A stretch of 5,398 nt of DNA from Thermoproteota archaeon (GTDB lineage Archaea; Korarchaeota; Korarchaeia; B14-G2). The notes under the pieces were generated by a model that searched no databases, was not told where the DNA came from, and worked only from the letters and a program-made list of their open reading frames with translations. Positions within the stretch are counted from its first letter, which is position 1. Each line of letters starts with the position of its first letter. Both the position numbers and the translations under genes were made by a program. Shown here one piece after another: positions 1,493 through 5,398 of the stretch. The stretch lies in NCBI GenBank assembly GCA_003661385.1, contig QMWA01000123.1, positions 1-5,398 of the forward strand, in the 5' to 3' direction.

Positions 1493-2152
1493 TTAGAGCT
1501 TTAGGCATAGTGCTATCAGCTTCTCTTCTGTTATGATGCCTGTTAGCTTGCTTCCTGTGTACACTGGGATAGATGGCGTCTTCTCTGATATCATGGTGTA
1601 TGCTGCTTGGCTTGCTGGTGATCCTAGGTCTACTCTAGCTGCTATCGTCTTGATGTGAAGGCTTCTTCCCTCTAGTAGCGCTAGTGCTGCCTCTGCTAGC
1701 TCTATCTCACTGGAGTACCCTAGGGGGGTGGCTGCTCCCCTGGATTCAGCTGCTGCCTCTGCTATCTGGCTTAGTGTGGGGTTCTCTGGGAGCATGTATG
1801 TTGGGGCTAGAGCCTCAGCTGCTACCTTCAGCTTGCACTCTAGGCATGCTCTCACCAGGCCTCTTAGGGTCAGGATTCTCCCGTCTATCAGAGCTAGCCT
1901 GCTTCTCAAGCTAAGCATGTGATGTGCTGCCTCCCTTACAGTGGAGTCTGCTGGAAGCCTTGGGGGCTGCTTTAGGCAGCTGTTCAAGGGCTTGTGGCTG
2001 GCTGCTGCAGCAAGCAGCTGAGCTAGCTCCACATGCCTCTCATCTCCCACTAGGGCCTCAGTCACCCTTTCTGATGCAAGCCTAGCTATGGCCTCGGAGA
2101 CTGTCTTCACCTCGATGGGATTAGGCTCTTCAGCTAGCTGTATCGCACGCAT
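1493..2152 (-). CDS. Protein of four degenerate CBS motifs
   Basis: CBS motifs pair into Bateman modules that bind adenosyl ligands and regulate partner enzymes, channels or transcription. Seen: 219 residues with no transmembrane segment and four repeats of about 50-55 residues: 1-55 (NPIEVKTVSEAIARLASE), 56-110 (LPADSTVREAAHHMLSLRS then RILTLRGLVRAC), 111-160 (NPTLSQIAEAAAESRGA) and 161-219 (GSPASQAAYTMISEKTPSIP then KLTGIITEEKLIALC). The fourth is the most canonical (P-x-V, G-I-I-T-E-E-K-L); the first and third lack a clean second strand. That gives two tandem Bateman modules without another domain. ATG at 2152 is preceded by AGGAGG with only 2 nt between, and the sequence after it (NPIEV) is a normal CBS beginning. 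The stop is TAA. It follows the glycosidase-domain relic, whose stop codon overlaps this AGGAGG region. Target and ligand are unknown. Confidence 0.72.
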   Translation of the reverse strand: MRAIQLAEEPNPIEVKTVSEAIARLASERVTEALVGDERHVELAQLLAAAASHKPLNSCLKQPPRLPADSTVREAAHHMLSLRSRLALIDGRILTLRGLVRACLECKLKVAAEALAPTYMLPENPTLSQIAEAAAESRGAATPLGYSSEIELAEAALALLEGRSLHIKTIAARVDLGSPASQAAYTMISEKTPSIPVYTGSKLTGIITEEKLIALCLKL

Positions 2153-2154
2153 GT

Positions 2155-2160
2155 CCTCCT
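2155..2160 (-). promoter_or_regulatory. Closely spaced Shine-Dalgarno AGGAGG of the CBS gene
   Basis: AGGAGG is a full-strength match but only 2 nt separate it from the ATG at 2152, closer than usual. Its first two bases are the last two of the TAG stop (2161-2159) of the upstream relic, so the relic end and the CBS gene are fused at base level. No other in-frame ATG follows early; a GTG at codon 15 is a weak alternative. Confidence 0.4.
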
Positions 2161-2400
2161 AGTGTCCTGCCTGCTTAACTTCCTTGTGGTGTAGCTCTAG
2201 CTGCACCTCTACTACAGTGGCAGAGGCTCCACTGCTAGCTGCTATGGCAATCAGGTAGCTTGGCAGCAAAGCTGCCTTAGCTAGAGGCTGTAGGCTTTCC
2301 TCTGCTATGTTAGTGGTGTGAGGCTCTTAAGCTGAGATGCAGGTTATCATGTTGGGTTCTTGCCTTCAGCTCAGCTCTCACATGGGTCCTCTTCACTCTC
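2159..2400 (-). pseudogene. Decayed second copy of the glycosidase C-terminal domain
   Basis: Not a complete gene. In one minus-strand frame (2326-2159, TAG stop) I read NIAEESLQPLAKAALL, then YLIAIAASSGASATVVEVQL and ELHHKE. The C-terminus of the adjacent glycosidase reads YIAEASLQPLAESTLL, then IIQAIAASRSPPQVIAAQVQL and EVTPQG. The upstream part continues in another frame (about 2384-2313, VRAELKARTQHDNLHLSLRA, then a TAA at 2310-2312), matching the glycosidase's YMKLKLKAGTPGASIAVYVSA. So there is a frameshift near 2320 and an internal deletion of about 28 bp relative to 2432-2680. DNA words are shared too: CCTTGTGGTGT at 2182-2192 and 2436-2446, and GCTAGAGGCTGTA near 2280 and 2562. It is the relic of a tandem paralogue or of a 3'-end duplication. 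Confidence 0.65.
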
Positions 2401-2428
2401 CATGTGAGGTGAGTGGCTCGCTATAGCT

Positions 2429-4456
2429 CTAGCTGCCTTGTGGTGTGACTTCAAGCTGCACTTGGGCTGCTATCACTTGGGGTGGGGATCTGCTGGCTGC
2501 TATGGCTTGGATTATGTGGGTTCCTGCTGGCAGCTTGAGCTTGACTAGTAGGGTTGATTCAGCTAGAGGCTGTAAGCTGGCTTCTGCTATGTAGCATAGT
2601 GTTGGGTTGAGGTTGCTTAAGGCTGACACGTAGACTGCTATGCTGGCTCCCGGGGTTCCTGCTTTGAGCTTGAGCTTCATGTAGGCTTCCTCTCCCTCCT
2701 TGACCTGCTGGGTAGGCTGCATGCTCTGGTTTAGGAGCTCAGCTGTAGCTGAGATCAGGGGGCTGTCTGCTATGCTGGTGGGCTGCAGCTCAGGGCCTTC
2801 TGCTGGCATAGCTGCTAGCAGCCTTCCTCTGTGGGATGAGAGAGCTAGGGGTGTGGTGTCTAGGGCTTCAGTGTAGGGCTCCAGTGAGCTCAGGTCTATT
2901 AAAGCTACTCCTATGCTGGCTGTGTAAGCTATGTGCTCGTAGAGCTCTACTGCAGTAGCCTGGTATGAGAGGGTGGGCGCCTGTACCTGGGCTACCTGAC
3001 CTAGCTCTAAGTCAGCTAGCAGCAGGCTGCTGTTAGCTGATGCGATAACCAGCGGCTTGCCAGCGTAGACTGGGGCATACCTCTCTGGGTCTGATTGAGT
3101 GGCGTCCTTGACCCAGAGGATGCTGCCTTCAGCTACCATAGCTGCCTTAACTGCCCCATGGCTCCACCATGCTGCTAGCACCCCACCTGGAGCCTGGGTG
3201 AGCTTGATGCTGCTTGCCTCACCGAGCTCAAGCACAACGCCCTGGGGTATGGCTGCCAGGTAAGCTACCCCGCTGTCGACGTACGCTATGGCGTATCCGC
3301 TGCCTAGTGGTGCAGCTGAGAGGGATGCTACGTCAGCCACATGCAGGGAAGCTATCTGGGTGAGCTCGCTGCCAGCTAGCTCAGCTGCCTTAAGCTCGCT
3401 GCCTGAGCACCATGCCACCATGTACCTTCCTCTAGGCTGGCTGTAGCATGCTGCCACCAGCCTCTGGTCTCCAGGCTCCTCAATGTGGATAGTGGCCCCC
3501 TCTAGCTTGATGTAGATGTCGTAGTCCTCCTGCAGCTCAGCTTCAGAGAGCCCTCTATAGCTCCATGCTAGCAGCTCACCTGCCATCGACACGGTGTAGT
3601 GGGATGGTATGTACCTAGGCACTGTGTTGAGCTCGAGAGAGGGGGCTGCATACGCTATGAACCCCATGCTCCTACACTTCTCGAGGAAGTCCATGACCTT
3701 GCTCCAGCTCCACACGTAGTCTACCACCATGACATCTACTCCAGCTTCTCTGGCTTCAGCCAGCTTCTCGAGGACAGGCTGAGGGCTCTCACATGGCTCA
3801 TCAAGGCAGTACCACACATCCTCTCTCATAGCCACGTCAATGTACCCGGTGAGCTGCGGTAGGAGGCCTAGGCCTCCTCCGATGTTCACCATGACCTTGA
3901 GCCCTAAGCTCCTAGCTTCAGCTGACAGGGCAGCTACCAGCTGCCTCATCTCGCTTGCCGCGCTGGAGTAGCCTTGGCTAAGCCAGTACTCGTATGCATC
4001 TATGTTGTCGAGGAGCACACCCTGGAAGCCCTGGCTAGCTATGCTGCCTATGTAGCTTAGGAGTATGCTCTTCCACTCGCTGCTCCAGTACTTCACCCTA
4101 TACTCTCCAGGCCACTCCTCGACTGGAGGCCCAATCCACCAAGGTGGATCAGCATACCACTCTTCTCTCCAGTACCACCTCCAGTCCTCAGCGTACCCAG
4201 CGTTCAAATAAGCATAGACCTCTATTCCCCTCTCTGCTACAGCCTGAACCTCATGCTTAAGCCAGCTTCCACCTGGGCCGGCATCAGGGTCTACTACAGC
4301 TAGCTCAACTGAGAGGGACAACAGCTCCCTCAGGTCAACGTCATAGTACCAGAGGACCCCGAGCCTAGGAAGCGCCATATATGCTGTTGGAGCCTGCTGT
4401 ACGAGCAGGATAGAGCCTAGGATGCAGGCTAAAGCCCACAGGGGAAGCTGACGCAT
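2429..4456 (-). CDS. Secreted GH114-like glycosidase with beta-rich middle and Ig-like tail
   Basis: Family: GH114/TM1410-like TIM barrels, whose studied members are endo-alpha-1,4-polygalactosaminidases. Seen (675 residues from ATG 4456): a hydrophobic signal segment at about 5-24, then the barrel at about 30-290 with VVDPD (54-58), AYLNAGYAEDWRWYW (82-96), YRVKYWSSEW (119-128), GFQGVLLDNIDAYEYW (143-158) carrying D150 and D153, the E212 region (MREDVW) and VMVVDYVW. These follow the family's order. Residues about 300-585 are short beta-strand repeats, propeller-like; about 585-675 form an Ig-like domain without a membrane anchor, so the protein is exported. ATG 4456 is preferred over GTG 4465 because AGGGTG lies 6 nt before it. 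Ala, Ser and Leu dominate. The upstream neighbour is an S-layer-like protein, so surface glycan remodelling is a reasonable inference; the true substrate is unknown. Confidence 0.8.
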   Translation of the reverse strand: MRQLPLWALACILGSILLVQQAPTAYMALPRLGVLWYYDVDLRELLSLSVELAVVDPDAGPGGSWLKHEVQAVAERGIEVYAYLNAGYAEDWRWYWREEWYADPPWWIGPPVEEWPGEYRVKYWSSEWKSILLSYIGSIASQGFQGVLLDNIDAYEYWLSQGYSSAASEMRQLVAALSAEARSLGLKVMVNIGGGLGLLPQLTGYIDVAMREDVWYCLDEPCESPQPVLEKLAEAREAGVDVMVVDYVWSWSKVMDFLEKCRSMGFIAYAAPSLELNTVPRYIPSHYTVSMAGELLAWSYRGLSEAELQEDYDIYIKLEGATIHIEEPGDQRLVAACYSQPRGRYMVAWCSGSELKAAELAGSELTQIASLHVADVASLSAAPLGSGYAIAYVDSGVAYLAAIPQGVVLELGEASSIKLTQAPGGVLAAWWSHGAVKAAMVAEGSILWVKDATQSDPERYAPVYAGKPLVIASANSSLLLADLELGQVAQVQAPTLSYQATAVELYEHIAYTASIGVALIDLSSLEPYTEALDTTPLALSSHRGRLLAAMPAEGPELQPTSIADSPLISATAELLNQSMQPTQQVKEGEEAYMKLKLKAGTPGASIAVYVSALSNLNPTLCYIAEASLQPLAESTLLVKLKLPAGTHIIQAIAASRSPPQVIAAQVQLEVTPQGS

Positions 4457-4462
4457 AACGTG

Positions 4463-4468
4463 CACCCT
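4463..4468 (-). promoter_or_regulatory. Shine-Dalgarno AGGGTG choosing the glycosidase start
   Basis: AGGGTG lies 6 nt before ATG 4456. It contains the alternative in-frame GTG (4465-4463), which itself has no ribosome binding site. I see no clear TATA box in the 40 nt before it, so the gene may be read from further upstream, through the PIN remnant. Confidence 0.4.
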
Positions 4469-4493
4469 AGGCTTCAGATGGTAGCTAGGCCTT

Positions 4494-4716
4494 TCAAGGT
4501 ATGCTGAAGTGCTTGGCTTTCACTTCTCCTATCTCAGCTAGGTCCTTGTCTGCTGTGAGGAGTGTAGCCTTTTTGAGGCTGGCGACTGCTAGGATGCAGG
4601 CGTCTACTAGCGAGAGCTTCCCCCTGTACTTGCACTTTAGGAGGCCAGTTAGCTCTGTCAGCTTCCAGGAGATCTATTGCGCTCTTCAGCTGGAGCTCCT
4701 GCCCCACATACGCCAC
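4494..4716 (-). pseudogene. Remnant of a PIN-domain (VapC-like) ribonuclease gene
   Basis: PIN toxins are Mg-dependent RNases of about 130-140 residues. Only the C-terminal half is recognisable: one minus-strand frame open from 4673 to the TGA at 4496-4494 gives 59 codons, with LTELTGLLKCKYRGKLSLVD, ACILAVASLKKATLL and TADKDLAEIGEVKAKHF. These match the family's K-x-K-Y, S-L-x-D-A-x-I-L-A and L-L-T-x-D-x-D-L motifs and carry its last two acidic active-site residues. Directly upstream in this frame is a TAG (4676-4674) and no start codon. The next frame upstream (4716 to about 4670, GQELQLKSAIDLLEAD) may be a further out-of-frame piece of the same gene. The N-terminal D-x-S/T active-site strand is absent, and the terminator of the previous gene lies only 55 nt away. 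No antitoxin gene is visible. Called dead. Confidence 0.62.
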
Positions 4717-4786: not shown

Positions 4787-5398
4787 CTAGCCTACTGCCA
4801 GTATGGTGTAGGCATCTACCCCAAGTGGGTCTACTTTCCCATTGTGGTTTGAGTCCTCCCACATGACTACTAGTATGTGGTATCCTGCTAGTGCGCTCCA
4901 GGTGTCGGGGTCTGACATGTATAGGCAGCCTGCCATGGTTCCCCAGCCTGTTACACCAGCTATCAGCATGAGGTTCCTGTCTATCCCCGGCTCAGACTCA
5001 TGCACTAGGGCTACTACAAAGTAGTCTCTGTAGCCTGTCATGTTGCTGTACCAGTCCCAGCTTCCTAGCTCTGATACAGTCAGCCTTGCGCCACCTGGTA
5101 TGGCTTCGAACCCTATGCCTGCCATAGACTGTATTTTCGCTGCTACAGCGTTCACCACTCCTCCTCCCACAGCTATCAGGTTGCTTGTCGTGTCTATCCA
5201 CTCCAGTGTGCTCAGGTTGATGACCTGGTGGTCGAAGACTGGCTCAAGTGGGTCCATGCCAGCTTCTGCTGCAGCGTACTCCAGGAGGCTTCCCCCAGCG
5301 CAGTCTATGGTCTCTGGGTTCCAGAAGCCCTCACTCGGATACCACCTGCCATATACTCGCTTGGTGTCTGTCCTGAAGAGGCTTGGTATGTTCTCGAA
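4787..5398 (-). CDS. C-terminal part of a secreted S-layer-like protein
   Basis: Partial: the frame is open to the right window edge, so the N-terminus lies outside; 203 codons are visible. An internal ATG at 5257 is not the start, because the upstream 47 codons are open and read as plausible protein (RVYGRWYPSEGFW, ETIDCAGGS). Seen: the NLIAVGGGVVNAVAAKI strand-turn-helix, a pattern known from archaeal S-layer and cell-surface proteins; an LMLIAGVTGWGTMAGCLY segment of the same type; two N-glycosylation sequons (NLS, NMT); and near the end an EF-hand/dockerin-like loop D-S-N-H-N-G-K-V-D, which is expected to bind calcium. No C-terminal membrane segment is present. The TAG stop at 4787-4789 is followed by a T5 terminator. 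Exact family not recognised; a structural surface protein, or the tail of a surface enzyme, fits best. Confidence 0.7.
   Translation of the reverse strand, partial: FENIPSLFRTDTKRVYGRWYPSEGFWNPETIDCAGGSLLEYAAAEAGMDPLEPVFDHQVINLSTLEWIDTTSNLIAVGGGVVNAVAAKIQSMAGIGFEAIPGGARLTVSELGSWDWYSNMTGYRDYFVVALVHESEPGIDRNLMLIAGVTGWGTMAGCLYMSDPDTWSALAGYHILVVMWEDSNHNGKVDPLGVDAYTILAVG

Follow-up and report, generated by a model that had tools for sequence, protein, structure and literature searches.

Downstream of a secreted glycosidase gene, and ahead of a CBS-domain gene on the same strand, lies a gap of 276 bp. The window that we analysed is a whole contig of 5398 bp from an archaeal MAG (206 contigs with a total of 1.74 Mb; completeness 91%), which is the sole member of its family among the genomes compared. 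In the list of open reading frames of the window, no frame with a start codon and at least 50 aa spans the relic described below. The initial annotation proposed that the C-terminal domain of the glycosidase has a decayed tandem copy in the gap, and our alignments bore this out. The interval that follows the glycosidase gene was aligned locally, as DNA, with the 3' end of that gene; the score was 54, while the maximum was 40 in 1000 dinucleotide shuffles. When 610 pieces taken from this AGCT-rich genome served as controls, the maximum was 32 in comparisons with the relic and 36 in comparisons with the tail. A frame-aware comparison of the interval with the protein sequence of the tail scored 84; 60 shuffles gave no more than 44, and eight control stretches from elsewhere in the window no more than 48. 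The similarity is thus far above chance, even for DNA as rich in AGCT as that of this genome. The features are collected in Table 1.

Table 1. Coordinates of the relic, its parent gene and the downstream gene in the window.
Feature	Position	Strand	Details and evidence
Decayed copy of the C-terminal domain (relic)	2175-2400	-	Frame changes at four places, net loss of 44 nt, TAA at the homologous stop; DNA and frame-aware alignments
Best-kept core of the relic	2195-2308	-	Open for 38 codons in the reading frame of the parent gene; alignments
Spacer between gene stop and relic	2401-2428	-	28 bp; not significantly homologous to the domain start, nor to the sequence after the relic
Intact copy in the glycosidase gene	2429-2698	-	Last 89 codons and TAG stop, covering most of the C-terminal domain (a predicted beta sandwich); alignments, low-confidence model
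Parent gene, secreted glycosidase	2429-4465	-	678 aa, GTG or ATG start, hydrophobic N-terminus; Pfam GH114 3.5e-24, TIGR01370 3.2e-43, PDB TM1410 4.4e-38
Downstream CBS-domain gene	1493-2152	-	AGGAGG abutting the relic; Pfam CBS 9.2e-08

The alignments placed the relic at 2175-2400, not at 2159-2384 as first proposed, and its counterpart is formed by residues 590-678 of the glycosidase and the stop codon (2429-2698), in place of the roughly 85 residues (2432-2680) matched before. About 72 codon pairs of relic and tail could be aligned, with 57% amino-acid identity, and the core (38 codons, 2195-2308) reads IAEESLQPLAKAALLPSYLIAIAASSGASATVVEVQLE. The relic has 226 nt where the gene has 270 nt, a net loss of 44 nt where about 28 bp had been thought missing, and the single frameshift assumed near 2320 gave way to four frame changes, at about 2385-2388, 2326-2327, 2309-2310 and 2193-2194. 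The TAA at 2175-2177 occupies the position of the gene's TAG stop. The TAG at 2159-2161, which touches the AGGAGG of the CBS gene and had been taken for a relic stop overlapping that gene's ribosome binding site, is simply where the shifted frame of the relic core next closes.

Significant homology to an intact gene together with disabling changes (the four frame changes and the absence of the gene's 5' part) are among the criteria of a pseudogene, and, judged by its sequence, the relic is an ordinary pseudogene fragment, a disabled copy of the end of the neighbouring gene. No present function is apparent for it beyond that of a putative spacer ahead of the CBS gene. Like the prokaryotic pseudogene fragments from partial tandem duplication described in a survey (PMC522871), it is a disabled partial copy beside an intact neighbour and carries frameshifts and deletions; it differs from them in nothing notable and is limited to one C-terminal domain. 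Other readings of the interval were also considered. The relic had no Rfam match that would point to an RNA element, no terminator was found in the interval, and read-through of the stop codon from the glycosidase into the relic was rejected because the parent frame closes after 11 codons.

The parent protein consists of a TIM barrel of the GH114/TM1410 type (residues 42-280) followed by an additional C-terminus of about 400 aa. It scored 85.8 bits against Pfam GH114 (PF03537), over the curated cut-off of 27, and 148 bits against TIGR01370 (MJ1477/TM1410 family), under the curated cut-off of 181.25. D153 and E215 were invariant in the alignment, and the nearest solved structure in a PDB search was that of Thermotoga TM1410 (TmGH191). 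It has been documented that TM1410-type enzymes, formerly grouped with GH114, now belong to GH191 (PMC12054363), for which endo-galactosaminidase activity with a catalytic Asp and Glu in the barrel is the criterion. The barrel of the parent protein matches TM1410 at 4.4e-38 and is in this respect like the family, whereas the roughly 400 extra C-terminal residues set the protein apart, and the copied tail lies outside the catalytic family.

An AlphaFold model of the tail, made without an alignment, has seven strands at a pLDDT of 63, and the tail is predicted, with low confidence, to be a small beta-sandwich domain. A fold search with this model, which is too weak at that pLDDT, gave nothing with an E value of 0.001 or lower. 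The tail bears a weak relation to a domain present in tandem in a 538-aa protein from a genome of the same class (locus L011); z is 17 for the likeness of domain 2 to domain 1 in that protein, and also 17 for the match of domain 1 with our tail. This protein exemplifies the secreted archaeal proteins in which beta-sandwich or Ig-like domains follow one another; it has the same type of domain in tandem, but both of its copies are intact and in one frame, whereas the second copy in our window is dead. The C-terminal part of a 362-aa protein encoded in the same genome was also weakly related to the tail, and one supporting profile included the tail sequence itself.

Relatives of the locus were sought in several collections. 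In the genomes searched, no full-length counterpart of the last 400 residues of the glycosidase was found, and the relatives obtained match the barrel only. An alignment-based scan of GTDB yielded 313 loci, found through the TIM barrel, and the post-barrel part or tail was absent from all 80 that were kept. Close relatives of the glycosidase were absent from 41 related genomes, from the 29 compared within the phylum, from the contigs of GTDB r220 and from IMG/VR; the 41 genomes contained no close relative of the CBS gene either, and no relative in the two-domain state was seen among the genomes searched. Within the genome itself, the glycosidase is the single GH114 match, no other close copy of the tail was found, and four other contigs (33.7 kb) contained no similar local direct repeats at E 1e-3.

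The borders of the relic and its substitutions bear on how it arose. Homology begins near the edge of the domain, ends at the stop and is not detectable beyond; the sequences following the two stops have no detectable relation (P 0.905), in a stretch that is short and old. Since no remnant of the 5' part of a second gene is present in the 28-bp spacer, a domain-sized partial duplication is more economical, and likelier, than a lost whole paralogue. The differences between relic and tail by codon position number 22, 19 and 35, and dN was 0.34, dS 1.14 and dN/dS 0.30, with dS near saturation and the sequence short. Under simple models, simulated copies that had been under constraint for most of their existence gave median dN/dS values of 0.23-0.26, with 69-81% of runs at or below 0.3, while copies dead on birth with matching divergence (t 0.25-0.35) gave medians of 0.42-0.49, with 5-14% of runs at or below 0.3. 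Because the observed ratio fits the constrained copies better, the substitution bias weakly suggests that the relic was once translated.

The history that we prefer, and to which we give about an even chance, is that the 3' end of the gene once encoded two beta-sandwich domains in tandem and that the relic is the decayed second one. A domain-sized tandem duplication at the 3' end of the glycosidase gene would have produced two tandem beta-sandwich domains in one protein, a new stop after the first domain would have left the second untranslated, and frameshifts and deletions would then have reduced the latter to the 226 bp seen today. This account requires a single duplication and a single new stop, and the tandem occurrence of this type of domain in the 538-aa protein speaks for it. 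The partial nature of the duplication and the former translation of the second domain within the same protein are both points that we infer, and the two-domain history as a whole stays inferential because the spacer has no significant likeness to the start of the domain (P 0.23; rank 141 of 344 in a second test).

Alternatively, a partial tandem duplication of the 3' end may have included the stop codon, and the second copy, never translated, would have decayed from birth. A single event would suffice for this, the relic does have a stop at the homologous place, and the share of differences at third positions (35/76) is compatible with it. However, such a copy predicts homology after the stop, which was not seen, and its dN/dS would rarely be as low as the observed one in simulations of matching divergence; we consider this history rather unlikely, though worth serious weight. 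The initial annotation had suggested a lost tandem paralogue, and the relic could indeed be the remnant of a complete second gene whose first 1.75 kb was deleted and whose 3' end decayed, with which the homologous stop and the bias to synonymous change agree. The other 85% of such a gene has nevertheless left no trace, and the deletion must have spanned almost exactly the stretch from the end of the first gene to the start of the domain. Because the spacer leaves no room for other remains and no other GH114 gene was found in the genome, this history costs an extra, precisely placed deletion, and we regard it as improbable.

Repeated exchange of the secreted tail, also suggested at the outset, gained no support. 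The relic would in that case be a silent cassette or donor, as in pilin-type variation, and would belong to a pool of alternative C-terminal domains, any of which could recombine into the expressed tail of a surface glycosidase; if true, this would mean tail variation in an archaeon. Tail and relic do lie in tandem, and the tail is part of a surface-type protein, but one copy only was found, it is dead with its four frame changes, and the several donors that define such a system were not seen, the genome having no other close copy of the tail. We consider this reading very improbable. Hardly any credence is left for chance similarity: AGCT is strongly over-represented in the genome, yet none of the 610 same-genome pieces reached the observed score, and the frame-aware score stands far above the control maximum.

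The remainder of the contig contains further incomplete genes. An M20-family peptidase C-terminal fragment without its 5' part lies at 484-774 on the plus strand (Pfam positions 124-205 of 206, E 8.2e-08). Between the glycosidase and the upstream gene, at about 4491-4622 on the minus strand, there is a C-terminal fragment of a PIN-domain protein (E 2.1e-05), and the rest of the PIN domain does not stand ahead of it in the same frame. A nucleotidyltransferase-like frame on the minus strand (147-428, a weak match) seems to continue in another frame (2-223), which makes a frameshift probable within 2-428. Together with the relic, this debris fits a region of decay and is a hint that decayed fragments are retained here. 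At 4787-5398 on the minus strand are the C-terminal 203 aa of an S-layer-like protein, whose domain is present in 21 of the 29 genomes compared from the phylum and has 13 occurrences in the genome studied here; in another genome (locus L006), a similar domain precedes the GH114 barrel on the same contig. The minus strand also encodes, at 958-1413, a small stand-alone protein resembling the alanyl-tRNA synthetase editing domain (AlaX type, TIGR03683 match 1.1e-25), divergent from all the phylum homologues compared. AGCT is strongly over-represented in the window and at loci L108-L111, with 11-22 per kb and ln observed/expected of 1.07-1.73. The contig is probably not a stray one, since its composition agrees with that of four other contigs of the MAG (tetranucleotide correlation r 0.89-0.94).

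For annotation, these results mean that most of the 276-bp gap is probably a pseudogene fragment, neither a regulatory region nor a hidden gene. For the glycosidase, the relic would be a small record of the gain and loss of a domain in a secreted archaeal enzyme.
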